Source: Rhizobium lusitanum (lineage in GTDB: Bacteria > Pseudomonadota > Alphaproteobacteria > Rhizobiales > Rhizobiaceae). From it: DNA of 64,000 bases. How positions within the stretch are numbered: the stretch's first letter is position 1; every line of letters begins with the position of its first letter. Where the stretch lies: NCBI RefSeq assembly GCF_014189535.1, contig NZ_CP050304.1, positions 186,001 through 250,000 on the forward strand, written 5' to 3'. The position numbers were made by a program, and so were the translations under genes. This document shows, piece after piece, positions 9,304 through 49,157 of the stretch. The notes under the pieces are model-generated. The model did no database searches and was not told where the DNA came from. It worked only from the letters and a program-made list of their open reading frames with translations.

Positions 9304-9437
9304 TCAATTCCTCACTGGCGATAAATAATGATGCTCTTTGGCGGCGGCGTCCCGTGAGCAGTAGACGGCTCTCCCCTTCCCTACCGGCTCATGAGAACTC
9401 CAAATCTCCGCTACCAGGCTACAATCCGGCCAACCAC

Positions 9438-10673: not shown

Positions 10674-10771
10674 AAGTCACCTTTTGCGGCAGTAAGAACC
10701 ATCAATGTCTGGAAAGTTGGAATTCAAGGCCGGGCCGGCTTAGGCGGGCTTGCCGGTGGCCCAATCGGCTC

Positions 10772-25397: not shown

Positions 25398-26120
25398 CTA
25401 AGGCTGAGCGAACCAACCCGAAAACGCCAAGCGATAATTGCCTGAGGACGAATTGGGTACTACGTGATGGATCGAGTCCGCGGAGGGTCGAAATAAAACC
25501 AACCTATTTTGTATTGGTTTGATTTTAGCCGCCGGCACCGTTCTACTAAACACAAGTTCGCCGCCGTACTCCTCATCTGATGGACCTGCAAGATAGTACA
25601 ACACTGTAATAATATAATGGCCTTTTCCCTCCTTCAAAAAGTCGCTGTGAGGGTCAATGAATGATAGGGGATCAAACGACGTTATAGAAAACCGCGGTTC
25701 AACCGCCCCTACATCGATCTGAACGTTGTCGCATATCTCTTTAAGTCCGGCTTTAAGTAAAGCTGTCTCTATCTCTTTAATAAGGTGAACATTTAAGCTG
25801 TGTGACGCGGGAATTTTCCCCGGCGATGCGAAGCACGAGTAGTACCAATATCGAAATGGATCAAAAGAGCAGGCATCGAAAATGCGCTTGATATTTTCGT
25901 TAGACGCAAGCTTTGAAGTCGGTATTCTACGATTGATATCACCACTTTTAATACACAGATTCCACCCTGTTCCGGGATCACTATTCCGCTTCCAACTCTC
26001 AATCGCCGCTCGTGAGAATTCATTGCTTGTCTCGGCGTCTAAAAAGTCATCAATAATTGCCGCGTTACCCTGAGTTAACACATCAGCTGCATCGCGCCGG
26101 TCAACCTTAAGCACTTCCAT
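25398..26120 (-). CDS. 2OG-Fe(II) oxygenase (prolyl-4-hydroxylase-like)
   Basis: A 240-residue protein. The C-terminal half shows the double-stranded beta-helix motif: His and Asp ligands in IDPHSDF near residue 160, EYGGEL, the distal His in IHHVVP near 220, and the 2-oxoglutarate-binding Arg in NYRLAF. Such enzymes hydroxylate Pro, Asp/Asn or small molecules. The N-terminal part (IDDFLDAETSNEF) is typical of P4H-like proteins. It is divergent from the RiPP-like genes starting at 27418 and separated from them by a broken GNAT gene. A role in modifying the Asp-Gly peptide is plausible but inferred from location. Codon use is A+T-rich like the rest of the island. Confidence 0.83.
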   Translation of the reverse strand: MEVLKVDRRDAADVLTQGNAAIIDDFLDAETSNEFSRAAIESWKRNSDPGTGWNLCIKSGDINRRIPTSKLASNENIKRIFDACSFDPFRYWYYSCFASPGKIPASHSLNVHLIKEIETALLKAGLKEICDNVQIDVGAVEPRFSITSFDPLSFIDPHSDFLKEGKGHYIITVLYYLAGPSDEEYGGELVFSRTVPAAKIKPIQNRLVLFRPSADSIHHVVPNSSSGNYRLAFSGWFAQP

Positions 26121-26212: not shown

Positions 26213-26849
26213 CTAAGTGAATTTACATCTGGAATCTTCAATTCCCTTAAGAAGAAGACTATCTATTTCTATTTGTCCAAACTCATGATTGGCATTGCGC
26301 AATCCCGACGCACTAATCAGGCTATAAACAACGCCGTCTAAAAACTCTTCGCTTTTTGGCATCTGGTAGCCAAGTGCTACAATGCTTTCCCGGTTAAATC
26401 CCGCTTTCTCAATGACTCTCTGGCTAGCTGTGTTTGTAATAGCGTGACCTGTGCTCACTCGTTTTGCACTCAATATAGAAAAGGCAAAGGCTGTCACAGC
26501 CACGAGTGCTTCAGTTGCATATCCCCGATTATAATATTCAGTTGCTGTCCAGTAAGCTACTGAATAACTAGGAAGCTTCGCATTCCTAACACTAAGTATT
26601 GTTGCGCATGCAATTTCTGCCACCGACGAACCCTTTATAAATCCTAGGAAATAAAAAAGATCGCTGCTGTAGTGCTTTTCCAAGCTGTTCATCGATCCAC
26701 TGTGTTGACGCAACCGGAATGTCCTCCTTGGGCAGCCAATGTGAAATATCCTGACTAGAAACCTCAAGTGATGAGCTAACCGCTTGCAAATCTGACTGGA
26801 GTGGTGGCCGCAGAACAAGCCTTTCACTCTCAATGAAGTTGTATTTCAT
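26213..26849 (-). pseudogene. GNAT N-acetyltransferase (RimJ/RimL-like), single frameshift
   Basis: The gene starts at ATG 26849: IESERLVLRP and ISHWLPKEDIPV are typical of RimL-type acetyltransferases. At an A6 run (26653-26658; T6 on the coding strand) the frame changes by +1. The remainder (IACATILSV, YWTATEYYNRGYATEAL with the acetyl-CoA loop, NTASQRVIEKAGF) continues to 26213. Removing one base from the run gives a 211-codon gene (RSFYFLGFIKG across the join). GNATs of this type acetylate N-termini or small amines. It sits between the P4H-like gene and the precursor peptide, so it may belong to the cluster. Confidence 0.82.
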
Positions 26850-27417
26850 TTGCTGCCCCTATCGTGTTCCATTCCGCAGCACGGAACGAACATAACAACC
26901 GGCGTCGAATGTATGCACCGTCGTCGCGAACGGTCAACACCCCATCCTCCGACACTCACCAACCATCCTGTCGGGTTGCCATTGATCGAGATTTCCGCCG
27001 GGTGCGTTCGCGCGTGCCTCTTCCCGTAGCCGGTGTTGGTTCGTCTGCGGGAAACACCAATGGCCGTTCCTGGGAGCGTGCTAATTTTGCTTGCGTAGCA
27101 AGCACTGCCTTCACGACAGCTGATGTCGAATGCTCGAACTGGGTCAATAACGAAGGAAACGCCGCAATTGTATAAACAGCATAACAGTAACGATAATTCT
27201 CACCATAGTATGTATTTCTCTAATATCAGTAGAGTAATCACGAGTTGGTGAATTCTCGTCAATAATGACCTGTTGCGCTCAGTTTGCGACAATGCTAGCC
27301 GTTTAGCGTGTCTACCGTAAAGTTAGGCACATATTGTCTGAATACATACTTATCCGGTGTTATGAACGGTATGTATTACTGTGAAAATGCATCTCTATTC
27401 TAATATAGGAGACCGTA
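26850..27417. other. Long upstream region of the RiPP-like operon
   Basis: About 570 bases between the divergent GNAT and the precursor gene. The first ~320 bases hold only weak open frames on both strands (for example 26956-27147 minus) with no recognisable family. The rest is strongly A+T-rich and contains three copies of the 9-mer GTATGTATT or its complement (27208-27216, 27341-27349, 27369-27377), and a TAATAT element at ~27401 close to the start. Confidence 0.5.
27341..27377. promoter_or_regulatory. Inverted repeat upstream of the precursor peptide gene
   Basis: AATACATAC (27341-27349) and GTATGTATT (27369-27377) are perfect 9-bp arms separated by 19 bases. A third half-site in the same orientation as the right arm is at 27208-27216. 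The dyad ends 40 bases before the GTG start, where an operator or activator site would be expected. No regulator gene is obvious inside the cluster. Confidence 0.6.
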
Positions 27418-27639
27418 GTGGATAACAACAAGCCCCAAGATACTACTACCGACAAAGACAAGCTTCGTGAACTTTTGGAGGAAGAGCTTAATCAAGTTGC
27501 CGGCGGTGACGGCGATGGTGACGGTGATGGTGATGGTGATGGTGACGGCGACGATGATGGCGGCGGCGACCAGGCGTCTGCAGGCGGCCAGCCTGAATGT
27601 AACGACGGCCCCGGCCCCTACGGTGGCGTCGTTACCTGA
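27418..27639 (+). CDS. Putative RiPP precursor peptide, double-glycine leader with Asp-Gly repeats
   Basis: A 73-residue peptide starting at GTG 27418 behind TAGGAGA. Residues 1-30 look like a double-glycine leader: charged start, then the amphipathic LRELLEEELNQVAGG with Leu at regular positions and GG at 29-30. Residues 31-44 are seven Asp-Gly repeats, followed by DDDGGGDQASAGG and a C-terminal QPECNDGPGPYGGVVT with the only Cys (61). A second GG (56-57) could be another cleavage site. The C39-peptidase exporter at 33291 is the expected protease. The acidic repeat resembles calcium-binding loops; the adjoining oxygenases suggest Asp hydroxylation (inference). I know of no named family for it. 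Confidence 0.75.
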   Translation: MDNNKPQDTTTDKDKLRELLEEELNQVAGGDGDGDGDGDGDGDGDDDGGGDQASAGGQPECNDGPGPYGGVVT

Positions 27640-27696
27640 CAATAGTATCTGTGTGGCGCCTTAATTTTGGGATGGCCCCACATCGAACAACAGGGT

Positions 27697-27714
27697 CGCC
27701 GTTTCACGACGGCG
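27697..27714 (+). promoter_or_regulatory. Hairpin between precursor and modification genes
   Basis: CGCCGT-TTCACG-ACGGCG forms a 6-bp G+C-rich stem with a 6-base loop in the ~110-base gap after the precursor gene. No T-run follows. It may act as a partial terminator or 3' stabiliser that keeps precursor mRNA more abundant than the downstream enzyme genes, as in other peptide operons (inference). Confidence 0.4.
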
Positions 27715-27747
27715 GCACAACTGATTGTCTATTGTCGGAGGTGACAG

Positions 27748-28721
27748 ATGTCGGAAATCGCGCTGGCTGAAAAATCCAAGTGCTTGGCGATCGTTGGTCT
27801 TGCAGCCAAAAAGAATATAGAGGTAAGGACTCTCGAAGATTTGAACAGAACGGATGTTCGAAATTTCGTTATCGATAGCTGTGATATATTGTTATCTGAG
27901 ACCATTGACGTAATGAAAGGCAGACTTTCAGACGCAGCAATTGGCATTGGCGCCGTAGATATTCCAAACTTTATAGCCGATGATACTACCTTGAATAAAG
28001 TTTGGGGAGCGGCCATTGCGTTTGGTATATATAACAATATTTTCTCGCCATCTGTGAGCGGCGTTACTGGCCTCCCTTATTCTCTATATCGTGCTTCAAA
28101 TGCTGCAGTAGAGCAAATGAAGCGAAATAATATTAAGTTGAGCACCCCAGATACGATCCTCAAATTTCACACCGACGGTTTGACAGCCAAGGATGACATT
28201 GGCGTCCCAAAATTTATCGCGCTTTACAACATCATTATAAACTATCAGCAGCCAGGGCGATTCCACTGGGTTCCTTTCGTAAAATGGAAGGAATTTGATA
28301 AGTTCGCTCGCGAGGTTGGAATTGACGTGCCTTATCGAATCGCATTGACACCTGCGGTTATAACAATGCCTGACGGTGAAGAGGTTGTCGTAAACAATCG
28401 CATCATCGAGGTACCGATTTTTTTCAGAGTGAGTTGCCTCGGCCGATTATGTTCTTCAATGGAGACGTACTTGGGCCGGCCGTGGGTAATCCTATTGATG
28501 ACACGGTGATCGCAAGGATGTTGCGGTCAATTTCGGAGCAGTCTGAGAGGATATCCATCCCCCAAAAGACTCGACGTTTGATTGTTGTCAACAATCAGCT
28601 AGGCCTGCACGCTCGTGACATATTGCAAGATCCAATAGCGGGTTCAAAAATCACCCGGTCGTATATAAGGAGTCTCTCAAGCGAGGCGGTAAGTGTCCTA
28701 AAATCACCGGCCTACGTTTAA
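27748..28721 (+). pseudogene. Clavaminate-synthase-like Fe(II)/2OG oxygenase (TauD/CAS superfamily), single frameshift
   Basis: It starts at ATG 27748 after GGAGGTGACAG. The first frame has FHTDG near residue 151 (His and Asp ligands) followed by GRFHWVPFVKW. It shifts at a T7 run (28418-28424). The -1 frame continues with PRPIMFFNGD and VVNNQLGLHARD (distal His) and RSYIRSL, where CAS-type enzymes have their 2OG-binding Arg. Adding one T gives a continuous 324-codon gene (VPIFFQSELPRPIM). Known relatives hydroxylate Arg, Asn or Asp beta-carbons. Its place right after the Asp-Gly precursor suggests that it modifies the peptide. The superfamily call rests on motifs only. Confidence 0.72.
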
Positions 28722-28770
28722 CGAGATAAGTTGGCCTTCGTTGATTATTTTTGCGGCCCGGGAGAACTAG

Positions 28771-30272
28771 ATGCCACGGATAGCGCTTGTCTACTTTTCG
28801 CAGAGTGTAACTGATTACACACCTCTTGACCTTGCATACATCGTTGCGAATATAACGCCCATACTTGGGAAGTCATATGAGTTCGATATCGTCAGATTGC
28901 CTCATCGGCGTGAGAAGACGCGCCTCATTGAAGAACAGACAGAGGCTCGGCAAAGAACAATTTCGGCCAACGCGAACCAGCTGATCGATCGTAAGCCCGA
29001 TGCAATATTCTTTTTGCGGATAGCGTTGTGTGGAGTAAAGTATTTGCTTTGGGACGCGCAAAAGCTATCGCTTCAAGAATTCGAGAGAAGGCCGCACACA
29101 TATTTTTAGGCGCGTGCAGCCATAAGCTGGAACCCGACACTGCCGATAAAATTGTCAATGACCACTATTTTGATTGTGCGGTTCGGGGGCCGTCAGAGGA
29201 TATTTTTGCAAATCTACCCTCCATCCTGGGTCGGAGATTTGTACCCGGAGTAATTTACGATAATGCCCGGCTAGCGGGCACCAATGAAGGTTTTGAAACC
29301 GTTAGACCGAGCATACCGAAATCGGCCTCATATAACAGCTTGGACCAGGTCGCTTCGCCGTATCTGTCCCACGTTCTCGACGGCTTTTTAGCTGAGCAAC
29401 AGCAGCGGCGTGATGGGAAGTTCAGGGCTTTTCTATCTTCTTCACGAGGTTGTCAGTTCGCCTGCCATTTCTGTTCGCGAAGCGTTAAGTACGAAAAAGT
29501 GAGATACTTCTCGGCCGCTCGATTTTACGGGGAGATAGAGTATCTACATACCAATTTTGGGGTAAATCGCTTTTTCGTTCTGGATGATGCTTTCCTCTGT
29601 TCGAAGAAACGGCTCAAAGAATTGAAGGACGAGTTTGAGCGGTGCAAAATCACCACTCCTTCGTTAGGTATTATTTCATTGTATGTCATGGCTCGGCCTG
29701 AGAGTATGGACGTTGAAGTCATTGAATTCATGTCAGCACTCAATGTACGGTACCTTCAAATTGGCCTCCAGACTATTAATCCTGCATTGCAACACTTTAT
29801 GGGGAGGCCAATAGACGTAGCATATTTCCGCGAGATTAAAGCGTGGCTAGATAAATACAAAATAGCATTGCAATTGGACGTTATTCTTGGTTTCCCAGGA
29901 GATACCGTCGAGTGGATGATCAAAACTGTCACATATGCGACCTCACTTGATCCCGCATCCATCCAATTAAAGCAACTATATTTAAACCCGTTCACAGCTT
30001 TCCATGTCGACCAATTAAAGCACGAACTTGCAACTGAGGAAGATCAAACCCGCGACGCATTCGATGCGGATTTTGACGCGCCTTATGTGGTCGGAGGGCG
30101 CGGACTGGACGAGCGTTATTACGTCGATACGAATACCGCCATTATGGAGGAAATTCAGAAGCGACCTGATATCAGATGGAAGTATCTTTCGAAACGACAG
30201 CGTTTTGTAAGCACGAACTTCTATCCGGGGGTTCCGAAGACATCGGACGCACAGCTGCACGCTGGCGTATGA
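28771..30272 (+). pseudogene. B12-binding-type radical SAM protein, single frameshift
   Basis: The first frame (28771-) has a start typical of cobalamin-binding radical SAM proteins (RIALVYFSQSVTDYTPLDLAYI). At a T5 run (29011-29015) the frame shifts by -1 and the reading continues ADSVVWSKVFALGRAKAIA to 30272. Adding one T gives a 500-codon gene. The Fe-S motif SRGCQFACHFC (CxxxCxxC) is near residue 226. It is followed by radical SAM barrel features: FFVLDDAF, YLQIGLQTINP, and QLDVILGFPGDTVE. Family members methylate or otherwise functionalise unactivated carbons, or form C-C and C-S links. The B12 domain lacks the canonical DxHxxG motif as far as I can see, so cobalamin use is uncertain. 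Confidence 0.78.
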
Positions 30273-30324
30273 GATAGATGCTCCCCGATAATCGCAAGGT
30301 CAATTAAAAGCTTGGAGTCATTAG

Positions 30325-31911
30325 GTGGACAATCGTCTTAGCGAGCTTCGGTCTGGAAAAGACAAGGACTTAAATACCAGCCATTGCTTATTAACCGTTT
30401 GGCAATCCGGTACGCAAGTGCACCGTACCAAATCCGCTGTATCGGACTATCCAGCCGCTGTGCAGGCACTGGCGTCCAAGTTTCGAAATGCAGACTTTAT
30501 TCATCTTGAGATCGTTAGCCCACCTCCAGCCTCAAGCTCTAAAAGCCTTCGCCAGATGTTCGAGCGTCGGTCGGATGGCCTTTATGCTGTAGAAATCGCC
30601 ACCGATTCGGCTACCCAATACATTTACGCATCTGACATTTTAACTGATAACATAGGCCTTCGAGACCGTGTAAAGGAGTTCGTAACGAATACGGGCTGCG
30701 ATTTATCGGATCCGCAAAGCCCCCTTTCTTTGGATGCCAGGTTTTCGCAAATGAAGCTGTTCATTCCAACAAGTGGCAGATACCTAGATTTACACAGAGG
30801 TTCTGCACACGGAATATTCTTTTCCTCGGTCGAGGCGGCAACAAAAGCGCTCGCTGAACTACTGATTCAGTGGGCGCTAAACAACGCTTCTCCGGACGGA
30901 AGCCTGCCATACAAGGTATATCCGTCCGGTCGTCGTTTGGAACCAACTCACGACAATCCTATTCGCCAGTGGATGACCACTTGGGCGCTCGCGACCCACG
31001 CAAAAAAAGTGAATGATGAAGAGCTGCTCCGTATTGTCACAAAGAACATCAAATACAATATGAGAAAGTTCTATAAGGCGGTCGGCGAGATCGGGCTCAT
31101 GGAGCACAATTCCATAAGCAAATTGGGTGCGAGCGCGGTTGCTGCTTTGGCGATCTTCAGCCACGAAGGAAATGATGGCCTACATCGTGCGGAGTTGAAA
31201 GCTCTTCTCGCGGGTATATCGTGTCAGTGGACGGCTTCGGGAAGATTCAAAACGTTCTTCAGTCCCTCGAACTGGAGCGGCAACCAAAATTTTTATCCGG
31301 GTGAAACGCTCCTCTTATGGTCAACGTTGTTGGACTATCAATCGACCCCCGAACTGAAAGAGAAATTCGAAACTAGCACCAGTTACTATAAGGAGTTCTT
31401 CAGGAATAACCCCAATCCGGCGTTTGTTCCGTGGCATACCATGGCCCAATTTAAAGCTTTTTGTCGGGACGAAAATTCTGATCGTGCCGACTATATCTTC
31501 GAAATGAATGACTTCTTGGTAGCAATTCAGCAAAATGATATTTCTGACAAATCAGATCTCACGGGGAGCTTTTACGATCCCGCTCGCCCGGAATACGGCC
31601 CACCGCATGCCTCATCTACCGCTATATATGTTGAATCACTTATTCATGCGTTGAAGATTGCCCGCCATCAAAACGACAAAGTGCGAGAAACACGCTATCT
31701 AAATTCCATTCTCCTGGGTTTTAACAATCTGAACAAGCTGCAGTTCAAGAGCGAAGCTGAGCTCTTTTACGTTGCGGACAAGAGGCGAGCATTTGGCGGC
31801 CTTCGCAGCAATCCTTTTGACAATATTATCCGAATAGACAACATCCAGCATGCGCTAGCAGCATGTAACGCATGGGAACTAATTGGATCCGAATCATCTA
31901 GCGGCAACTAG
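30325..31911 (+). CDS. Unrecognised 528-aa protein, probable alpha/alpha-toroid
   Basis: I do not recognise a named family. It starts at GTG 30325 behind GGAG. Residues ~1-190 form a mixed alpha/beta region. From ~200 to the end it is mostly helical with recurring motifs typical of (alpha/alpha)6 toroids: NWSGNQNFYPGETLLLWSTLLD near 325 (broken by the loop), FVPWHTMAQFKAF near 380, and PPHASSTAIYVESLIHALK near 425. Glu and Trp clusters could line a central cavity, as in epimerases, lyases or lanthipeptide cyclase-like folds. No signal peptide is present. It lies between the radical SAM and transport genes and is probably a tailoring enzyme or scaffold of the cluster. Confidence 0.6.
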   Translation: MDNRLSELRSGKDKDLNTSHCLLTVWQSGTQVHRTKSAVSDYPAAVQALASKFRNADFIHLEIVSPPPASSSKSLRQMFERRSDGLYAVEIATDSATQYIYASDILTDNIGLRDRVKEFVTNTGCDLSDPQSPLSLDARFSQMKLFIPTSGRYLDLHRGSAHGIFFSSVEAATKALAELLIQWALNNASPDGSLPYKVYPSGRRLEPTHDNPIRQWMTTWALATHAKKVNDEELLRIVTKNIKYNMRKFYKAVGEIGLMEHNSISKLGASAVAALAIFSHEGNDGLHRAELKALLAGISCQWTASGRFKTFFSPSNWSGNQNFYPGETLLLWSTLLDYQSTPELKEKFETSTSYYKEFFRNNPNPAFVPWHTMAQFKAFCRDENSDRADYIFEMNDFLVAIQQNDISDKSDLTGSFYDPARPEYGPPHASSTAIYVESLIHALKIARHQNDKVRETRYLNSILLGFNNLNKLQFKSEAELFYVADKRRAFGGLRSNPFDNIIRIDNIQHALAACNAWELIGSESSSGN

Positions 31912-31932
31912 CCCTTTTTTTGGTATGCTTGA

Positions 31933-33294
31933 ATGCCCGAGGATGAAGACAGTTATGTCCAAAATACCGCACTTCGTTTGCCATTAAATGGAAAGCCGGA
32001 GACAAGCAGCAAGCCCTTGGTGCCGCTCTTCCGCCTCCAGGCAATTGAGGCGCGCGCGCCGTCCCACCTCCCACGCGTGATCCAAATACGTGTACCCTAT
32101 ATGACTGCGACGGCAATTTTTGCTGTCGCAGTTCTATTTCTGCTGGCAGGCCTTTGTGTTTTTGGTCGCCTGACGCAAATTGTCATTGCTGAAGGTATTC
32201 TTGTCCCGGATAAAAGTAGTGTCAAAACGTATCCCCCGAAAGCAGGAATAATCGTCAAACAGTTTGTCATTCAGGGCCAGAAGGTTCGGAAAGGCGATCC
32301 TTTATATGCGATATCTGGCGATCAATATGATGATCGCAATGCCGCCATACTGAACCATCAAAGTGAACTAATAAGGCTCAGGGTCGCCAATATCCAACAG
32401 CAAAAGGAATTGGAGACACGACAGGAGGAGGAGCAGGTTAAGCTCTTCGAGCAGCAAAAACAGGATTCCCAACAGCAGCTCGAGATATTCGAGAAATCCG
32501 CTGAGGCTTTTGCAGATTCAGTGGAGTTGGATCGCAATATTCTGTCGCGCCGCCAAAAACTCCAGGCACAAAATGCGGTATCTGTGGAGCAAACAGAGCA
32601 GGCGGGGAAATTGCTCTCGAATGATCAGGAGCGTTTGCTGTCCTTGACCGAGAAGCGGCAAACGCTGCTTCGTCAAATTGCACAATATGAAAGTCAAGCG
32701 CGCCTCGCGCCTATTGAACTATCAATGAAATTGTCGTCGTTGGAGGAGCAAGCTACAGCTCAACTCCTTGATTTATCAAGAACAGAAATGGAGCGAGAAA
32801 CAATCGTTCAGGCACCAATCGATGGAGAAATTGCTACAGAGGTCGCGTACGTTGGGCAACGCGTTACGCCAGATCAGCCACTTGTGGTGGTGAATCCATC
32901 TGATTCGAAATTAATCGCAGAATTATTCGTAACAAGCGCCGGGATAGGCTTCCTGAAGCCAGGCGGGCGTGCTGCCCTCAAATATGATGCTTATCCATAT
33001 CAGACATTCGGGTATTTCATGGGACATATCCGAAGTATAAGTAATGTTGCCCTTATGCCACAAGAAGTACAAACGCTGCAATTTAAACTTGCCACCAACC
33101 AACCGGTCTTCAAGGTGGTTGTAGATTTGGATCAGCAGGATGTAACAACCTATGGATATAAGACAGTCCTCCTACCCGGATCTACGTTCTCAGCAGATCT
33201 TTCGGGTGAAACACGCAACATTTGGCAATGGATACTAAATCCGCTTTTGTCAGTTAAAGGATATGCCTTTTCTAGCAGTGGAAATCCCAAATGA
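31933..33294 (+). CDS. HlyD-family periplasmic adaptor (membrane fusion protein)
   Basis: A 453-residue protein. A transmembrane helix lies at ~57-80 (TATAIFAVAVLFLLAGLCVF), then a lipoyl half-motif (GIIVKQFVIQGQKVRKGDPL), a long Gln/Glu-rich coiled coil (~130-270), a second lipoyl half (IVQAPIDGEIATEVAYVGQRV), and a beta-barrel. This is the standard adaptor of type I secretion. It links the inner-membrane ABC exporter to an outer-membrane channel not encoded in this window. Its stop overlaps the exporter start by 4 bases. Confidence 0.92.
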   Translation: MPEDEDSYVQNTALRLPLNGKPETSSKPLVPLFRLQAIEARAPSHLPRVIQIRVPYMTATAIFAVAVLFLLAGLCVFGRLTQIVIAEGILVPDKSSVKTYPPKAGIIVKQFVIQGQKVRKGDPLYAISGDQYDDRNAAILNHQSELIRLRVANIQQQKELETRQEEEQVKLFEQQKQDSQQQLEIFEKSAEAFADSVELDRNILSRRQKLQAQNAVSVEQTEQAGKLLSNDQERLLSLTEKRQTLLRQIAQYESQARLAPIELSMKLSSLEEQATAQLLDLSRTEMERETIVQAPIDGEIATEVAYVGQRVTPDQPLVVVNPSDSKLIAELFVTSAGIGFLKPGGRAALKYDAYPYQTFGYFMGHIRSISNVALMPQEVQTLQFKLATNQPVFKVVVDLDQQDVTTYGYKTVLLPGSTFSADLSGETRNIWQWILNPLLSVKGYAFSSSGNPK

Positions 33295-35465
33295 CGATCG
33301 ATTTGCAGGCAGATACAGCGAAGATCTTTGGCAAGCGCAGACATCTACCTATATTGAGGCAGACGGAGGCGGCCGAATGCGGCATCGTGTGCTTGGCAAT
33401 GATCGCCGCATTCTGGGGCAAGAATATAGATGTCACAACCATTCGGCAGCGCTTCGCCATATCGTCGCGAGGTACGAACATCCGCACGCTGATGAAAATC
33501 GGCGACCTGTTAGGTCTTTCTAGCCGCGCGGTCCGAATTGATATCGTCGACCTCGACAACCTTAGGCTCCCAGCGATTTTACATTGGGAGTTCAAGCATT
33601 TTGTTGTTCTGCGATCTGTGGGACAAAAATTCGTAATACATGACCCCCGGCTGGGAACTAGAAACCTTCGAAAAGATGAATTGAATGATAAGTTCACAGG
33701 TGTAGCCCTCGAACTTTGGCCAGCCAGTGATTTTTCACCTCAAGGGTCTACGAAGCGCTCATCGTGGCGGTCACTTCTGGTAGAACCACGTGGTTTTGCG
33801 GTGATGTGCGCGAAACTGCTAACCATTGGCTTAGCTATTGAAGCTATATCCCTTTTGACACCAATGATAACTCAATGGGGTATAGATAATATTGCATCCT
33901 CTGGTGATTTGGATCTGCTTACTGTTTTAGCAATGGCCCTTGGTACCCTTTTGGTCTTGCAGGCCGCTTTCACAGCGTTAAGGGGATGGGCGGTAAACTC
34001 GGCTACAACCTCATATATTCTTAACTGGAAAATGCATATTTTTGCGCATATGACGACTTTGTCGATGCGCTATTTCGAGTTGAGACGCGTCGGCGATATA
34101 ACATCACGCTACGACTCTGTTGAGCGCATAATCGGAATATTGAATGATAGTTTCGTGGAAGGTATCCTTGATTCTGCAATGGGGATATTCACGATATCCA
34201 TACTGTTTGTCTACAATGTCCCGCTTACGCTCATCACCCTTTTGGGTGCCAGCTCTTATGTTCTTTTACGAGTTATTCGGTATGGCTCAATACGGGAGCT
34301 AACGCAGGAAAGCTTGCTAGCGGATGCGAGGGAAAATTCCAGCCTAATTGAAACTATAAGAGGCATTCGACCGATTAAGCTTTTCGGTCGGGAGAAAGGT
34401 AGAGAGCAAGAATGGGTGGCGGCCGCTGTTGATGAAGCAAATGCGTCCTTGGCGTTATCCAAAACGCAGGTATTGTTTAGATTCATTTCCAATCTTATTA
34501 GCGGCGGAGAGCAAGTAATAATTTTTTGGCTGTGCATGCGGATGGTTACGCAAGGACAGATGACTATAGGTATGATCGTCGCCTATGCTGCCTATCGAAG
34601 TCAATTTTATTCAAGCGTCTCAGGTCTGGTAGACAACTATATTAGCCTCCAAATTGTCAAGATACATGCCGAACGTGTGGCGGATATTGTCTTAGCGACG
34701 CCGGAAGAGAATACGGATTTGGTCGAAATGACGGAGAGGATCGGAGCACTCTCTGCGGAGATTTCTGTGCAAGATGTGACGTTTCGCTATGGAGCATTTG
34801 ATACTTTTGCTTTGCAGAACATCTCGATCAAGATCGAAGAAGGCGAAAATGTCGCGTTAGTAGGTCGATCAGGCTGTGGAAAGAGCAGTCTTATGAGCCT
34901 CTTGGTAGGGCTTTATGAGCCGGAGGAGGGGCGGGTGTCTTTTGGCGGCATTCCATTGGCAGGACTGGGCTTGGCTGCTGTAAGGCGAAAAATCGCGGTA
35001 GTGATGCAAGACGACATGCTTTTTGCGGGAACGATAGCCCAGAATATAGCATCTTTCGATGCGAACCTTGAGCTGGAGCGCCTTGAGGAATGCGCGCGGA
35101 TCGCCTGTATTGATCAAGAGATTATTACGATGCCTATGGGTTATGGCAGTCTTGTCTCAGACCTTGGAAGCAGCCTCTCTGGAGGTCAGCGGCAACGAGT
35201 TTGCATAGCTCGAGCGCTATATAAACAACCACGTGTTTTGCTTATGGATGAGGCGACCAGTCATCTAGACGTGGAAACAGAGCGTGAGATAAATGCAAAA
35301 ATTCAGAAACTGGGTATCACGCGGATCATTATTGCTCATCGATTGGACACCATAAGGTCGGCGTCGCGGCTTGTATTATTGGAGTCGGGCAAGATCATTG
35401 CGGATACCAAGGCAGGGAATGGCTACGAAGAGATCATAGATGCGATTATTGGCCGGAGACTCTGA
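33291..35465 (+). CDS. Peptidase-containing ABC exporter (C39 bacteriocin-type, PCAT)
   Basis: A 724-residue protein with three parts. Residues ~18-140 are a C39 peptidase: Gln24 and Cys30 in RQTEAAECG, His near 108 in FKHFVVL, Asp in HDPRLG. Then six membrane helices (~165-440), and an ATPase with VGRSGCGKSS near 525, LSGGQRQR and LLMDEATSHLD. Such proteins cut double-glycine leaders and export the core peptide. The catalytic triad is intact, which supports the peptide at 27418 as its substrate. It is coupled to the HlyD gene by an ATGA overlap and closes the cluster. Confidence 0.94.
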   Translation: MTIDLQADTAKIFGKRRHLPILRQTEAAECGIVCLAMIAAFWGKNIDVTTIRQRFAISSRGTNIRTLMKIGDLLGLSSRAVRIDIVDLDNLRLPAILHWEFKHFVVLRSVGQKFVIHDPRLGTRNLRKDELNDKFTGVALELWPASDFSPQGSTKRSSWRSLLVEPRGFAVMCAKLLTIGLAIEAISLLTPMITQWGIDNIASSGDLDLLTVLAMALGTLLVLQAAFTALRGWAVNSATTSYILNWKMHIFAHMTTLSMRYFELRRVGDITSRYDSVERIIGILNDSFVEGILDSAMGIFTISILFVYNVPLTLITLLGASSYVLLRVIRYGSIRELTQESLLADARENSSLIETIRGIRPIKLFGREKGREQEWVAAAVDEANASLALSKTQVLFRFISNLISGGEQVIIFWLCMRMVTQGQMTIGMIVAYAAYRSQFYSSVSGLVDNYISLQIVKIHAERVADIVLATPEENTDLVEMTERIGALSAEISVQDVTFRYGAFDTFALQNISIKIEEGENVALVGRSGCGKSSLMSLLVGLYEPEEGRVSFGGIPLAGLGLAAVRRKIAVVMQDDMLFAGTIAQNIASFDANLELERLEECARIACIDQEIITMPMGYGSLVSDLGSSLSGGQRQRVCIARALYKQPRVLLMDEATSHLDVETEREINAKIQKLGITRIIIAHRLDTIRSASRLVLLESGKIIADTKAGNGYEEIIDAIIGRRL

Positions 35466-36536: not shown

Positions 36537-37973
36537 CTATACCCACTGCCACTCCGCGGAGACAGGATGAATGGCTTCAGCCTCGATATGCGCCGATAGG
36601 TCCGCCCAGATCGGATCGCTGGTAAAACTGACAAGATCGCCGGCGGCCTCCGCGAGAGAGGAGGCGCCATATCGGACAGCCACCTCCATCGCTACCCCGT
36701 TCTCTTCGATCGCCATGAACGGTGAGCCCTGCTTTGGGCGCAGGACCCGGTGTCCCCACATCCCGGGCCGCTCGTCCGCACGCAAAGCATCAAGCAGATC
36801 GTGATCGTGATCGTGATCGTGATCGTGATCGTGATCGTCCGAGGATTCGAGTGCGATGGCAACAAGATACCGCATGAGGGGATAGTAGACGGTCTGCCGG
36901 CATCCGCCGAGAACACGAACGCCCGGCAGGATCGACATCACCAGAAACGTTAGCAGCAGATTCGGCACCAATTTGCGCTGGCGCAGTGAGGCCGCGATGC
37001 TTCCAGGGTCAAACCTCACCTTACGGAACGAAGAGGATCCGCCTGAAAGAACGCCGTCCTGCAAACGCAGGGGAAATAACCTGCCATCCTCCAGGCCCCA
37101 AAAAAAATCGGTTGTTTGACGTATCCATCCTGTCCAGGGTCCGGTATTGAGCCGCTCCATGGTACGCAATATGCTTTCCGCAAACAGGCCGTCTCCGACA
37201 AAACGGGACGAGAGCCACGATGTCGGATCCTCGAAATGTTCCGCGACGAGATCGGCAACATCGATGTCGTCAAATTGCAGCAGCCGTAGAGACGGCGGAA
37301 ACGATCTTCGCCATAGGACCTGATTGGCGGCTTTGATCGCTTCGGCAGCCGACGGGAAGTCCTTGTCCGGCAAAATAGCTTTGAGCAGTTCAGCCGCGGC
37401 ATTGGCAGGTTCGCCGCCATTTTGTCCCGCCAGCGTGAAGCGATAAGGCCCATTGAGGCCACAAATACTGTAAGGATCCATCCGGCTTCGCGACAGGCCG
37501 AACACGTTCACCACCTCGCCGCCAAGCGAAAGCCATCCGGGGCCCTTTTTCGACTTCTCTATGAACTTCACCGTCGAAGAGCTGTAGCAGATGTGCCACC
37601 GCTGGGCATGGGCGGTGAGACCGAGTGCGCTGAATAGGTGTGTGTAGAAAGCATCGGGCTCGATCAGCAAATGACAGTGAGGACCTGTCTGTATGACCGG
37701 CGATGCAGCTATTTGCCGGCCTGCTTCCTCTGCATCGTCCTGACTGGCCCCTGACCTCAACGCGATACGAACGACAAATGTCCGAAGCCGAATCATCGCG
37801 TCGTCGCGAACCGAACATCGGCCGCGGCGGCCTTCTGCGTAAACTGCAGATGCGTAGTCCTTGAGCGGAAGCGCCCAGAATCGGGCAAGGTTGGGCATAA
37901 GAGAAGACAACGCCTGTCTTACATCCTCCGCAGCACTTTGACCGCTCGTGGCACTCGACAGCTCTTTGCTCAT
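36537..37973 (-). CDS. Hypothetical protein, 478 aa, with Asp-His repeat
   Basis: I do not recognise this protein. The start at ATG 37973 lies 31 bases after the methyltransferase-like gene stop. It is soluble-looking, with a Trp/Phe-rich centre (TGPWTGWIRQTTDFFWGL). Residues ~380-393 form DDHDHDHDHDHDHD, encoded by a perfect hexanucleotide repeat; such a run can bind Zn, Ni or Co. A CHLLIEP and QRWHICYSSSTVKF pair near 115-145 might belong to an enzymatic core. It seems to work with the methyltransferase-like protein, since the two genes are adjacent and both are linked to traA. Confidence 0.6.
   Translation of the reverse strand: MSKELSSATSGQSAAEDVRQALSSLMPNLARFWALPLKDYASAVYAEGRRGRCSVRDDAMIRLRTFVVRIALRSGASQDDAEEAGRQIAASPVIQTGPHCHLLIEPDAFYTHLFSALGLTAHAQRWHICYSSSTVKFIEKSKKGPGWLSLGGEVVNVFGLSRSRMDPYSICGLNGPYRFTLAGQNGGEPANAAAELLKAILPDKDFPSAAEAIKAANQVLWRRSFPPSLRLLQFDDIDVADLVAEHFEDPTSWLSSRFVGDGLFAESILRTMERLNTGPWTGWIRQTTDFFWGLEDGRLFPLRLQDGVLSGGSSSFRKVRFDPGSIAASLRQRKLVPNLLLTFLVMSILPGVRVLGGCRQTVYYPLMRYLVAIALESSDDHDHDHDHDHDHDLLDALRADERPGMWGHRVLRPKQGSPFMAIEENGVAMEVAVRYGASSLAEAAGDLVSFTSDPIWADLSAHIEAEAIHPVSAEWQWV
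36797..36838. repeat. Seven perfect GATCGT hexanucleotide repeats
   Basis: Seven head-to-tail copies of GATCGT inside the 478-residue gene encode alternating Asp-His on the minus strand. Because the unit is six bases, gain or loss of units keeps the frame and changes only the length of the Asp-His tract. Each unit also contains a GATC site. Confidence 0.9.
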
Positions 37974-38004
37974 TTTTGCTGATCCCGCATGAGGAAGCGA
38001 CCGC

Positions 38005-38889
38005 TCAGCTTTCGCTGCTAATCGACTGCGGCGGCCGCCATGCCCAGTCTGCTTGCATCGGATTTTTCTCGTCATTCACGAGGATGTGCGGCACCTGCTC
38101 GTGGCAAAACTCTGGCGGTATCGCCGGTTTCACCATCGAAGTGACAAAGTCTTGCAGCGAATTCAAGGAATTGGATGAGACGATCGTGTAGAAATTCCCG
38201 CTATTCCACGTGACGACGGCATACCGGAAGTACGATTGGAGAGCCAATCGCGATGTCTCCAGGTCGACCTGGAAGTCGAACATCGTATCCAGAACGCCAC
38301 GCCTTTTATCTACAATCTGCCTCGGTGTAAAAAACCGCGATTTGAACACCTCGTCCTTTTGGCGCTCTCGTTCAAGATAGGCCTCGGTGTTTCCGTGGGC
38401 GAGCTTTTGCACCTGAACCAACACGCCATCGGGCCGGACGCGGGGCGCTATGAAGCCGGTTTGATTGTCCCTGTCACGCCCGTACATCTGAAAAGTCGTG
38501 TCTTCGAGCAGGACATCATATCCGTCCCGGAAAGGCTGAAGCGTTTCATCTGCCGCATAGCGCTCATCGTCCAGTTCGAAGAACGGCCCGTGGTAAAACT
38601 GCGCATCGTCGCTGCCTCTTCGGGCGAAAAAGCAGACACGGTTGCCGTCCGTGGGACTGCAATTGAGGGTTTTCAGGCGCCCATCACCGAGCTTAGCCAG
38701 CGCTCTCGTAAGGGTGCCGGCGCCGGCTCCCAGTGTGTAGATCGTCGCAGCACGTCCGTGGCGCGCCCACGTCTTCTCCGCAAACGAGAAGATGGCGGCG
38801 CCCAGGCGACACTCCTCCTCCAGCCGATAGGGAATGCTTGCAAAATAGTGGCTATCGAAATGCCCCCACAGACGCCGGTGCGTACTCAT
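38005..38889 (-). CDS. SAM-dependent methyltransferase-like protein
   Basis: A 294-residue protein whose ATG (38889) overlaps the traA stop (ATGA). Motif I of class I methyltransferases is visible near residue 52 (IYTLGAGAGTLTRAL). A second strand motif YDVLLEDTTFQMYG is near 125 and GVLVQVQKL near 155. Downstream are a charged helix (YLERERQKDEVFKSRFFTPRQI) and a Phe/Tyr-rich C-terminal domain. The acidic residue expected after the second strand is not obvious, so the substrate and even activity are open. Translational coupling to traA means that it should be made when conjugation genes are on. Confidence 0.7.
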   Translation of the reverse strand: MSTHRRLWGHFDSHYFASIPYRLEEECRLGAAIFSFAEKTWARHGRAATIYTLGAGAGTLTRALAKLGDGRLKTLNCSPTDGNRVCFFARRGSDDAQFYHGPFFELDDERYAADETLQPFRDGYDVLLEDTTFQMYGRDRDNQTGFIAPRVRPDGVLVQVQKLAHGNTEAYLERERQKDEVFKSRFFTPRQIVDKRRGVLDTMFDFQVDLETSRLALQSYFRYAVVTWNSGNFYTIVSSNSLNSLQDFVTSMVKPAIPPEFCHEQVPHILVNDEKNPMQADWAWRPPQSISSES

Positions 38890-45843: not shown

Positions 45844-45881
45844 CAGGAATTGCGTCTTCTTAGATGATGCGAGGGAATTCA

Positions 45882-46160
45882 ATGACCACCACCAATGAAA
45901 TTGCCGACAAGATCGCGGCCGACAACAGCCTGACGAAGGTCCAGGCCAAAGGCATCGTCGAGGCCGTGTTCAAGGCGATCGCTGATGCCGCCGGCTCCGA
46001 CGCTGAAACCTCCATCCCGGGCTTCGGAAAATTCAAGGTAAAGGCTTCGCCGGAGCGCGAAGGTCGTAATCCTTCGACTGGCGCGACCGTGAAAATAGCG
46101 GCTTCGAAGAAGCTGACCTTTGCGCCTGCAAAGGCGCTCAAGGATGCACTGAACAAGTAA
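45882..46160 (+). CDS. HU-family DNA-binding protein
   Basis: A 92-residue protein from ATG 45882 behind GAGGGA. It has the HU fold: an N-terminal helical pair (EIADKIAADNSLTKVQAKG), the IPGFGKFKVK core, the beta-arm Pro-containing RNPSTGATVKI, and a final AKALKDALNK helix. HU proteins bend and compact DNA; a plasmid copy could serve replication, transfer or silencing of foreign DNA. Confidence 0.92.
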   Translation: MTTTNEIADKIAADNSLTKVQAKGIVEAVFKAIADAAGSDAETSIPGFGKFKVKASPEREGRNPSTGATVKIAASKKLTFAPAKALKDALNK

Positions 46161-46174
46161 TCCGCAAAGGGAGA

Positions 46175-46194
46175 GCCCCGCCTCTCGGCGGGGC
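46175..46194. terminator. Terminator hairpin between HU and DUF736 genes
   Basis: GCCCCGCC-TCTC-GGCGGGGC is an 8-bp perfect G+C stem with a 4-base loop, lying between the convergent HU gene and DUF736 copy 1. The T-run is short on both sides. A near copy with a 9-bp stem is at 48034-48055 beside DUF736 copy 2. Confidence 0.7.
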
Positions 46195-46205
46195 CTTCGT
46201 TGCTA

Positions 46206-46514
46206 TCAGTCCCGGATCGGTCGGGACCAGATGAGGGAGAGGCCTTCCTCGCCTTCGACCTCGATGAGCGTTGCGTAGATCGGGGCCGGGAAGCTCGGGT
46301 CGTCGAGCTTGACCGAGAGGTACTCGCGGCGTTCATTCGAGGTCTTCTTCCACGCTGCGCCGAACTCGACATTGCCTGCGAGGATGCGGAAGTCCGGACC
46401 CTTTTCGGAGGCGCGCTCGACTGCGCGGACGGTTGCCTTGACGTTGAGGTTGAGGGTCTTGATGGTGCCGTTGAAGCCGTTGCCGGAAGCGGTGAAAGAG
46501 CCGATGGTTGCCAT
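46206..46514 (-). CDS. DUF736 protein, copy 1
   Basis: A 102-residue protein of family DUF736, which is near-universal on rhizobial plasmids and has no proven function. Typical features are the start [39 protein letters not shown] in the middle, and [19 protein letters not shown]. The start is ATG 46514. It lies inside a direct repeat of ~600 bp; copy 2 at 48066 differs only at the C-terminus (SRPIRD here, SRSNRD there). Confidence 0.9.
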
Positions 46515-46870
46515 TGTCGTATTCCTTTTCGGTTGTTCGGGCCGCGTCCATCGCGGCCTCGATGGCAGTCGATCAGACCGGAGACGATCGGCCTGCACCT
46601 GAAAGGCCGAAACGGAGTGGAGGACGGCCAAGGAGAGGCTTTCTTGGCTCGCGAGGAATGGGCGCATTGGCGCACAGGGGAAGAAAACGATCCGGCCGTT
46701 GCGGATGCCGATCGAGCCGAGCATCGCGAGGCGGTGTTCGGTCAGACATGCCCCATCGAGACCGCGGTGGAGCGCCGGAAACAGGGGACGAAAGGACATG
46801 GCAATGGCGGTCTTGCACGGTTGAACGACCGCTTCGATACCGATCCGCCGGCCGGCCCTTCACACTGGTA

Positions 46871-47926
46871 TCAAGTCAGGCCGTACCAAGTTCCGCGACC
46901 TGCTCCGTGCAGGATCAGATGTCCCTCATCGGTCAACGCGCGCAGATGATCCTTGACGGTATTCCGGCTTGCGCCCGTGGCCTTGGCTGCGTCCATCACG
47001 GTCACTCTCCCACGCTCGCGCGCCAGCTCGAGAATGGAGACCGACAACTCTGGCAGATCGCCGAGGAGGACGCGCTCGCGGTCCATCTTCCGCTCAAGGC
47101 GCTGCTTTTGCCGCTGCAGGCTTCGCAGGAAGAACTCGACCCAAGGGTTCCAGTCCTGCCGATCCGTGCGGATCGTGCCTTGCGTGCGACGAAGCGCCAG
47201 GTAGTAGGCCTCCTTGTTCTGCTCGACGATGCTTTCGAGCGAGCTGTAGGGCACGTAGGCATAGCCGGCCCGAAGGAGCAGCAGCGTGGTCAATGCCCGC
47301 GACAGTCGGCCGTTGCCATCCTGGAAAGGATGGATTTCCAGAAAGACCACGACGAAGACGGCGACAATCAGCAGAGGGTGGAACGTCCCATCCTCCTCCT
47401 GAGCCCGCTGCCAGGTCACCAGTTCCGCCATTCGGCCCGGCGTATCGAACGGAGAGGCTGTCGCAAAGACGACGCCAAGACTCACACCGTTCTCGTCGAA
47501 TGCCTCGACATTGTTGGCAAGAGTCTTCCAGTCCCCCCGGTGTCGTTCGTCCTTTGTCGAGTGAGCGAGCAGATCCCGGTGAAGCTGACGTATGTGATTT
47601 TCGTTGAGGGGGATCGCGTCGAAAGCGGAGAAGATCGTCTCCATCACCTCGGCATAGCCTGCGACTTCCTGTTCGTCGCGGCTGGAAAAAGAGCCGATCC
47701 GGAGGTTTACGAGCAGCCTCTCGACCTCGCGGTCACTCAGCTTTGCCCCCTCGATGCGGGTCGACGATCCAATGCTCTCGATTGTCGCGACCCGACGCAG
47801 GCTTGACAGGCGATCAGGCGCAATGCGGCCAAGGGCCCGCCATGCGCCTTTGAACTCGTCGATCTCCGCGATCAATGAAAGGATCTCGGGCGTAATACGC
47901 AATGTCGAGAGATCGAGAGCTGCCAT
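46871..47926 (-). CDS. Fic-domain protein with C-terminal winged helix
   Basis: A 351-residue protein. The catalytic motif HPFQDGNGR is near residue 198. The N-terminal inhibitory helix motif SSTRIEG is near 54, placing it among class II Fic proteins that hold their own AMPylation activity in check. A winged helix-turn-helix lies at the C-terminus (VTVMDAAKATGASRNTVKDHLR). Fic enzymes transfer AMP to protein Tyr, Ser or Thr. It is flanked by the two copies of the direct repeat, and a GGATG repeat array lies directly upstream of and over its start, probably its own binding site. Confidence 0.92.
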   Translation of the reverse strand: MAALDLSTLRITPEILSLIAEIDEFKGAWRALGRIAPDRLSSLRRVATIESIGSSTRIEGAKLSDREVERLLVNLRIGSFSSRDEQEVAGYAEVMETIFSAFDAIPLNENHIRQLHRDLLAHSTKDERHRGDWKTLANNVEAFDENGVSLGVVFATASPFDTPGRMAELVTWQRAQEEDGTFHPLLIVAVFVVVFLEIHPFQDGNGRLSRALTTLLLLRAGYAYVPYSSLESIVEQNKEAYYLALRRTQGTIRTDRQDWNPWVEFFLRSLQRQKQRLERKMDRERVLLGDLPELSVSILELARERGRVTVMDAAKATGASRNTVKDHLRALTDEGHLILHGAGRGTWYGLT

Positions 47927-47997
47927 CCGTTATCCCATCCGTTTCCATCCGAATGGTTATGACACGGCGGGATCCATTTTTCCATCCATTTTCATCC
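47924..47997. promoter_or_regulatory. GGATG repeat array at the fic start
   Basis: CATCC (GGATG on the coding strand) occurs at 47924, 47936, 47946, 47983 and 47993, with a near copy at ~47972. Spacing is 10-12 bp, one helical turn, so all copies face the same side. The first overlaps the fic start codon. This pattern suggests cooperative binding by the winged-helix domain of the Fic protein itself or by another repressor. Confidence 0.55.
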
Positions 47998-48034
47998 GAT
48001 AGTGGATATGGATGAGTTAAAGGTAGGGAAGGAG

Positions 48035-48631
48035 GCCCCGCCTTTCGGCGGGGCCATCGTTGCTATCAGTCCCGGTTCGACCGGGACCAGATGAGGGAGA
48101 GGCCTTCCTCGCCTTCGACCTCGATGAGCGTTGCGTAGATCGGGGCCGGGAAGCTCGGGTCGTCGAGCTTGACCGAGAGGTACTCGCGGCGTTCATTCGA
48201 GGTCTTCTTCCACGCTGCGCCGAACTCGACATTGCCTGCGAGGATGCGGAAGTCCGGACCCTTTTCGGAGGCGCGCTCGACTGCGCGGACGGTTGCCTTG
48301 ACGTTGAGGTTGAGGGTCTTGATGGTGCCGTTGAAGCCGTTGCCGGAAGCGGTGAAAGAGCCGATGGTTGCCATTGTCGTATTCCTTTTCGGTTGTTCGG
48401 GCCGCGTCCATCGCGGCCTCGATGGCAGTCGATCAGACCGGAGACGATCGGCCTGCACCTGAAAGGCCGAAACGGAGTGGAGGACGGCCAAGGAGAGGCT
48501 TTCTTGGCTCGCGAGGAATGGGCGCATTGGCGCACAGGGGAAGAAAACGATCCGGCCGTTGCGGATGCCGATCGAGCCGAGCATCGCGAGGCGGTGTTCG
48601 GTCAGACATGCCCCATCGAGACCGCGGTGGA
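48035..48631. repeat. ~600-bp direct repeat, right copy
   Basis: Second copy of the segment at 46175-46771. After 48631 the sequences diverge abruptly (ACGTGCC here, AGCGCCG there), so the duplication has a sharp right edge. It includes DUF736 copy 2, about 257 bases upstream of it, and the terminator-like hairpin. Confidence 0.93.
48066..48374 (-). CDS. DUF736 protein, copy 2
   Basis: A 102-residue DUF736 protein, start ATG 48374, identical to copy 1 except for two residues near the C-terminus (SRSNRD). The near-perfect identity at DNA level means a recent duplication. Function is unknown for the family. Confidence 0.9.
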
Positions 48632-49157
48632 CGTGCCAGTTCGCAAATTGGAAGGAATAGGACAATGGCTTCATCTGGCGGCGACCGGTTGGGAACGCCC
48701 CGCCGGGTTTCCCGCGAACCTGCGATTGCGCATATGGCACATCATCGATTGACGCGATGATTCCGGGGAGAAGGAGCCTGTGTAGCCGTCAGGAGTGGGA
48801 ACGTATGCCGGCAATGCCTGGCCGTTGCCGCAGACGGCCAGGGAATAGTCCGTTTCAATCGACCTGCCAAAACATCGCGCCCGACTGAAGGAAGCCCTGG
48901 GCCACTTGGCTCAAGGGGAAAAGAACTCGCGGTCCTTAATCATGCCCGGATACTTATAGTCACGGCCCCACGCGGGGTTTCACCGGGCAAGCGAGGTGGC
49001 TTTTTAGCTTGAGCGCCTTGCCGTCCTTCTTCATGTTTCTGATGTGGACAGCCGCGAACCGAGCCCGGAGGGCTGCCGGCATTGGGGTGCCTCAAACGTC
49101 CTTTGTTAGACGAGGCGGCACCTTGTAGATTGAAACAACACCTTGGAGATTGGAAAC
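48632..49157. other. Intergenic region between DUF736 copy 2 and the VOC gene
   Basis: About 525 bases without a supported gene. Around 48940-49080 the minus strand shows a short basic reading (HIRNMKKDGKALKLKSHLAC) that might be the end of a lost gene. Just before the VOC start, an 18-19-bp unit is tandemly repeated (CACCTTGTAGATTGAAAC at 49119 and CACCTTGGAGATTGGAAAC at 49139, period 20 bp). Confidence 0.45.

Follow-up and report, generated by a model that had tools for sequence, protein, structure and literature searches.

Results

The window analysed here is a 64-kb stretch of Rhizobium lusitanum DNA (contig NZ_CP050304.1, G000:C1:186001-250000; coordinates below count from its first base unless a locus is named). 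The genome comprises 6.94 Mb in 5 contigs, and the contig concerned, C1, is a plasmid of 332 kb. The window contains a gene cluster that is probably of the ribosomally synthesised and post-translationally modified peptide (RiPP) type. On the plus strand, a precursor peptide of 73 amino acids (aa) with a double-glycine (GG) leader and an Asp-Gly tract is followed by a 2-oxoglutarate (2OG) oxygenase-like gene and a radical S-adenosylmethionine (SAM) gene, each lying in two frames, and then by genes for a 528-aa protein, an HlyD adaptor and an exporter in which a C39 peptidase is joined to an ATP-binding cassette (ABC) transporter:

27418..27639, plus strand: precursor peptide, 73 aa, GTG start, open frame; leader 1-30, then (DG)7 and more Asp/Gly, with Q-PEC-ND near the C-terminus
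27748..28509, plus strand: putative CsiD/GlaH-like 2OG oxygenase, N-terminal part, containing HxD (FHTDGL); reading frame broken at, or close to, the T run 28418-28424
28434..28721, plus strand: C-terminal part of the same oxygenase, in a different frame from the N-terminal part; contains the distal His (LHARD) and Arg
28771..29109, plus strand: radical SAM protein, N-terminal part; frame break at about 29010-29050
29028..30272, plus strand: radical SAM protein, main part, carrying the CxxxCxxC motif (GCQFACHFC); among solved structures, TokK and CysS are the nearest relatives
30325..31911, plus strand: 528-aa protein, open frame; residues 165-526 predicted to form an (alpha/alpha)6 barrel like that of AGE/cellobiose 2-epimerase
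31933..33294, plus strand: HlyD-type periplasmic adaptor (HlyD_3), open frame
33291..35465, plus strand: C39-peptidase ABC exporter, open frame, with Cys30, His103 and Asp118

An earlier reading made from the letters alone (the sequence-only reading) had described six consecutive plus-strand genes. The peptide, 528-aa, HlyD and exporter genes are open and follow one another in the order given, but one frame break divides the oxygenase gene and another divides the radical SAM gene. A Pfam scan of the cluster proteins recognised the C39, ABC membrane and ATPase domains, HlyD_3 and Radical_SAM. Neither Pfam nor NCBIfam scans pointed to a named RiPP class, in agreement with the earlier statement that none could be named.

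The cluster lies in a region whose base composition is foreign, as the sequence-only reading had proposed from its A+T richness: the GC content is 46-51% per kilobase at 25-36 kb, against 53-64% in the rest of the window, bar one kilobase at 21-22 kb with 49.6%. At 38-62 kb, a region with TraA, TraG and ParB, the DNA matches rhizobial plasmids (701 records, mainly Agrobacterium, Rhizobium and Sinorhizobium). For the stretch 27200-35100 the best DNA matches span just 63 bases, in 6 plasmid records.

The precursor peptide and its exporter

The precursor leader carries L(-12), E(-8), L(-7) and V(-4), followed by GG. According to the excerpt of PMC10885120 consulted, C39 peptidases recognise hydrophobic residues at -4, -7 and -12 of the leader. 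This rule, together with GG, is satisfied by the window peptide (L-12, L-7, V-4) and by a peptide of Propionivibrio dicarboxylicus described below (L-12, L-7, I-4). We searched for the pattern L...[ED][LM]..[ILV].G[GA] near the N-terminus in 11,691 open reading frames (ORFs) of 30-200 aa from 87 sources (the window, loci L004-L087, L149 and L150), and these same two peptides were the sole matches. Lantibiotic leader models gave weak, below-cut-off matches to the leader (E 0.048 to 0.11). After cleavage, the predicted product has 43 residues, including 12 Asp, 1 Glu, 1 Cys and no Lys or Arg, with a net charge of about -13.

In the 6.94-Mb genome a single site, the one in this peptide, matches a coding pattern for GG(DG)3D; the Propionivibrio genome likewise has one site with zero mismatches. 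Across the phylum, 9 of 398 genomes contain the pattern, the R. lusitanum genome among them; judged by eye, the sites in the other eight do not belong to GG-leader peptides. All codon variation within the Asp-Gly tract is at third positions and synonymous (6/6 in the window, 8/8 in Propionivibrio), which argues that the tract is kept as protein, in contrast to a perfect (GATCGT)7 repeat at 36797-36838.

In the exporter, the C39 peptidase domain (PF03412, E 2.7e-31) is fused to the ABC domains. Its Cys30, His103 and Asp118 are common to the Propionivibrio exporter, and the leader follows the recognition rule; the pairing of a GG-leader precursor with a leader-cutting exporter of its own, as in the sequence-only reading, is supported. 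A better GG-leader substrate elsewhere in the genome had been named as a possible objection to this pairing. The genome holds two C39 domains, both on C1; the second belongs to a C39-ABC/HlyD exporter at C1:151.4 kb (L154 = G000:C1:143000-159000, 8441-12112) that adjoins a 79-aa GG-leader peptide (MSNITEINTDMLDLVSGG...; leader ending ...MLDLVSGG) and shows the same gene order as on Rhizobium sp. plasmids. A second GG peptide thus exists, but each C39 exporter adjoins its own, and therefore the pairing within the island stands, with cross-export a possibility. The second exporter is apparently a separate, microcin-like system. On two of the Rhizobium plasmids (L149 10742-10981 and L150 7743-7982), the 79-aa gene that follows the C39/HlyD exporter is labelled as a flagellar hook protein and may encode an exported peptide.

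Recurrence of part of the cluster in Propionivibrio dicarboxylicus

The sequence-only reading had suggested asking whether such a peptide recurs beside the same genes, and in P. dicarboxylicus DSM 5885 (L086) it does. We found 110 loci of the 528-aa family and kept 80, many of them on short contigs; this is the sole one with radical SAM, HlyD and whole C39-ABC matches. Identity to the window proteins is 48% for the main part of the radical SAM protein, 36% over residues 172-513 for the 528-aa homologue, 31% for HlyD and 38% for C39-ABC. The GG-leader peptide, of 158 aa, has G(DG)10 directly behind GG and, past the tract, a long part rich in Ala, Ser, Thr and Val. The genes at this locus encode HlyD, GNAT, the Asp-Gly peptide, two TraB/GumN-like proteins, an Rce1/CPBP-like protein, the exporter, the radical SAM protein and the 528-aa homologue.

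The radical SAM protein belongs to a protein-database group of 35 strong matches, itself included, in which CxxxCxxC is conserved. A profile match to TokK/CysS (E about 1e-16) spans the SPYL and CxxxCxxC regions, and 2 of 19 group members match the B12-binding family PF02310 weakly (best E 0.0074). Cobalamin binding by the enzyme is likely, with weak support from its sequence. A Trp of TokK was rejected as a matched residue, HMMER placing it at the alignment edge, four residues off the invariant Trp of the family. With a profile threshold of E <= 1e-60, the R. lusitanum genome alone matched among the 398 of its phylum, and Propionivibrio alone among 300 genomes of its own order. Partial, distant matches were present in 22 plasmid records, none of the 20 listed covering 80%, and 36 loci in viral contigs gave distant matches only (19-27%). 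The neighbourhood of a radical SAM locus on a Roseibium plasmid was read and proved to be a different cluster. Two further pairs of radical SAM and 528-aa relatives come from contigs that agree in length and source (97005 for P0125/P0002, 8712 for P0129/P0020), and we infer that each pair lies on one contig. Searches for further complete clusters in the phylum and order genomes, plasmids and viral contigs found none.

The 528-aa protein, which has no Pfam match, had been guessed to be toroid-like, and the predicted model bears this out with an (alpha/alpha)6 barrel, that is, the predicted fold of the AGE sugar epimerases. His 371, 428 and 509 are invariant in all 59 aligned relatives, and the window protein retains 67 of the 73 columns conserved at >=95%. 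Among 60 relatives, two matched the protein, G050 strongly (E 2.5e-77) and G015 marginally (E 9e-4). In the one plasmid record with a match, from Thioclava, the neighbouring genes include those for a type I exporter, HlyD and a Mur ligase, but no such cluster is present. The AGE-fold family, which bears no Pfam or NCBIfam name, is often fused or adjacent to an Asp/Asn beta-hydroxylase (PF05118) in several phyla, as a two-part system.

The 2OG oxygenase and PEC peptides

A profile built from relatives of the oxygenase aligned by hhalign with Escherichia coli GlaH (E 2.1e-4 for one comparison, probability 46%). In GlaH, HxD...H provides the Fe ligands and an Arg binds 2OG; these residues are in register over 266 columns, at 15% identity. 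The C-terminal fragment scored 12.1 bits against the Pfam CsiD gathering score of 27, the relatives gave no CsiD match, and the predicted structure of relative P0122 (pLDDT, the predicted local distance difference test, of 33) was unusable. The CsiD/GlaH label is therefore one of motifs, which suggest that the oxygenase is distantly related to these enzymes.

Close relatives of this oxygenase are rare: a fragment query of the protein database returned two besides itself, and 3 of 72,556 plasmid records carry relatives (Paracoccus marcusii pCP157_11, Agrobacterium vitis pAt and Calothrix NIES-4101 plasmid2). Within the class, the profile matched one genome among 385 (its own). It matched none of the 16 genomes holding 528-aa relatives, none of 386 genomes of the cyanobacterial phylum (that of G1099) in a search run without a positive control, and nothing in phages or viral contigs. 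On all three replicons an annotated small gene lies upstream of the oxygenase, 73 to 128 bases away. The encoded peptides end in ...APECTDASDPVG (P. marcusii), ...RPECTDTSLT (A. vitis) and ...SPECSVHKLPR (Calothrix), and the corresponding region of the window peptide reads ...QPECNDGPGPYGGVVT. PEC thus stands near the end of the upstream small peptide at all four oxygenase loci with a readable neighbourhood; over the background, it falls within the last 20 residues in 15 of 10,005 small ORFs, these four included. The Calothrix peptide starts beyond the 420-base limit of our upstream-ORF scan and was identified by direct reading of the locus.

None of the three replicons gave a match to the radical SAM protein, the exporter, HlyD or the 528-aa protein; two of the loci share a related MFS protein (32%), and the Paracoccus locus has an M24 metallopeptidase. 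The sequence-only reading had counted the oxygenase as part of the Asp-Gly system. This is unsupported or at least incomplete: the oxygenase family goes with a PEC motif close to the C-terminus of the peptide and not with the tract, and Propionivibrio has the tract in a genome where the oxygenase profile found no match. The PEC peptide gene of A. vitis (L005 8697-8819) is automatically labelled as vatH streptogramin resistance, a label that seems spurious for a 40-aa peptide.

Discussion

We consider it probable that the locus is a RiPP-type cluster in which a GG-leader precursor is served by enzymes modifying the tract and the PEC region and by its own C39 exporter, as a variant of GG-leader RiPP systems that is perhaps not functional in this strain. 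The basis of this interpretation lies at the level of sequence, and consists of the leader, the peptidase residues, gene order, the co-occurrence of motifs with enzymes, family membership and one predicted fold. Two RiPP modules seem to have come together on a single precursor. The 30-aa leader of the 73-aa precursor would be recognised, and the cobalamin-type radical SAM enzyme and the AGE-fold protein would act on the core, most simply on the Asp-Gly tract, since the tract recurs with these enzymes. The CsiD/GlaH-like oxygenase may act at or beside the PEC motif, because PEC recurs with the oxygenase. Once the C39 domain had cut behind Ala-Gly-Gly, the 43-residue, highly anionic product would be exported by the ABC/HlyD pair together with an outer-membrane partner whose gene lies elsewhere. 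The sequence gives good support to the predicted leader recognition, cut behind AGG and export. We infer which residue each enzyme would change, by what reaction and in which order, and what the product might do.

Several observations weigh against this interpretation. The PEC motif was spotted after the fact. The complete neighbourhoods of the Asp-Gly type that were read number two only, and BLASTP aligns nothing between their two peptides. Moreover, the 528-aa protein of Propionivibrio does not group with that of the window in the tree, where both are on long branches, and its radical SAM gene, although open in the DNA for 522 codons (L086 7878-9446), is listed in the protein database with just 266 aa (P0150). 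At 79 of the 80 loci of the 528-aa family, some of them short, no match to this radical SAM protein was found; because the family mostly occurs without it, the usual substrate of the family may not be a peptide. Finally, frame breaks interrupt the oxygenase and radical SAM genes here, and the GNAT and M20-type peptidase genes nearby as well. The pathway may be partly dead in this strain, or errors of sequencing may account for the breaks.

The breaks raise a possibility that we rate somewhat short of even, namely that a once-functional cluster has decayed into pseudogenes in this strain, where the exporter, and perhaps the peptide, would alone be made. Such decay would be compatible with a RiPP-type cluster in the relatives, where open frames exist for the oxygenase (L004-L006, P0122) and the radical SAM protein (P0125-P0129, L086). 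At least four frame-broken genes were met in the window (oxygenase, radical SAM, GNAT and M20-type peptidase; no systematic count), and the 528-aa protein is on a long tree branch. Each of the 150 ABC ATPase domains scored across the genome falls within an open frame of at least 232 aa, so that a high genome-wide error rate is unlikely, but these are 150 of 374 candidates and the sample favours intact genes. Short T runs are a typical place of base-calling errors, and the three breaks within the island sit at or near such runs. The exporter frame is open, and the 528-aa protein has kept its conserved columns together with all three invariant His, which also argues against decay.

We would extend the RiPP-type reading, tentatively and with rather more doubt than belief, to a new RiPP class. 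The Asp-Gly tract behind the leader would be the substrate of the radical SAM and AGE-fold proteins, with Asp for example epimerised, isomerised or C-modified, changes to which Asp-Gly is chemically prone, and a separately mobile oxygenase/PEC module would have been grafted on. Concerning the product, the acidic composition and charge predicted above could be those of a secreted polyanionic peptide that chelates metals or calcium in the manner of a metallophore, and whose binding would be tuned by changes to Asp or Cys. This role is compatible with a RiPP-type cluster and seems to us doubtful.

It is unlikely that the cluster makes an ordinary class II (microcin-like) exported peptide, in which the Asp-Gly tract would be an acidic spacer and the neighbouring enzymes would serve something else. 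The long Ala/Ser/Thr/Val-rich part of the Propionivibrio peptide speaks for it, as do the adjacent TraB/GumN-like and Rce1/CPBP-like proteins, which could be immunity proteins, and the second C39/HlyD system of the same replicon, where no modifying enzyme was seen by eye beside the 79-aa peptide. However, the radical SAM and 528-aa genes adjoin peptide and exporter in two unrelated bacteria, and the oxygenase accompanies PEC peptides on replicons without a match to such an exporter. Hexanucleotide arrays do occur in the window, but the idea that the Asp-Gly tract is a meaningless DNA microsatellite is hardly credible and was rejected, given that the codon variation is wholly synonymous and that the tract begins at the GG site in both genomes, distant as these are from each other.

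The interpretation we prefer, a RiPP-type cluster, shares features with several known systems. With the GG-leader RiPPs exported by peptidase-containing ABC transporters (for example class II lanthipeptides and graspetides), it has in common the leader with hydrophobic residues at -12, -7 and -4 and the C39-ABC exporter, here with HlyD; unlike them, it has a core made of an Asp-Gly tract and a PEC motif, and no LanM-, LanB- or LanC-type enzyme was matched among the cluster proteins by Pfam or NCBIfam. Cobalamin-type radical SAM enzymes are used in proteusin systems, which employ nitrile-hydratase-like leader peptides (NHLP). The best model for the window exporter is the NHLP exporter TIGR03796, but at 486 bits against a cut-off of 853, and the 30-aa leader gave no NHLP or Nif11 match at E <= 1. 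The radical SAM protein resembles TokK and CysS in its profile match, and differs from them in its separate 35-member group, its weak B12-domain match and its peptide setting. Likewise, the oxygenase shares HxD...H...R with the glutarate 2-hydroxylase CsiD/GlaH but has low identity to it and stands beside a PEC peptide gene. The 528-aa protein resembles the AGE superfamily (N-acylglucosamine and cellobiose 2-epimerases) in its predicted barrel, and differs from it in its 12% identity, an extra N-terminal part of about 160 residues and relatives that occur with PF05118 proteins. No system of this kind was found among the literature matches listed from a limited paper collection, nor in the excerpts of PMC10885120 and PMC13331322.

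Three pairings can be tested, for which the searches made gave no named precedent: the radical SAM and AGE-fold proteins with an Asp-Gly tract, the CsiD-like oxygenase with PEC, and the AGE-fold family with Asp/Asn beta-hydroxylases. If the RiPP-type reading is true, a peptide-modifying role would be added to the AGE fold, and a precursor would have been assembled modularly from two RiPP systems.

Other features of the window

Upstream of the cluster, a divergent gene lies on the minus strand:

26213..26849, minus strand: GNAT acetyltransferase (PF13302), split in two frames (26592-26849 and 26213-26833)

We are unsure whether it is a member of the cluster. A GNAT gene common to Propionivibrio and the window was rejected as a candidate: both proteins are PF13302 but compare by BLASTP at E 0.041 and 0.15.

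The broken M20-family gene (peptidase T by eye) lies near 8.2 kb, at 8083-9303, and its C-terminal part runs on in another frame. A separate, intact 2OG-Fe(II) oxygenase gene (PF13640) is found on the minus strand at 25398-26120, inside the A+T-rich island. The (GATCGT)7 repeat mentioned above encodes an Asp-His tract in a 512-aa protein (36537-38075) with no Pfam match. At 45860-48740, two near-identical short protein genes, some 2 kb from each other, flank a Fic-like gene (named by eye).

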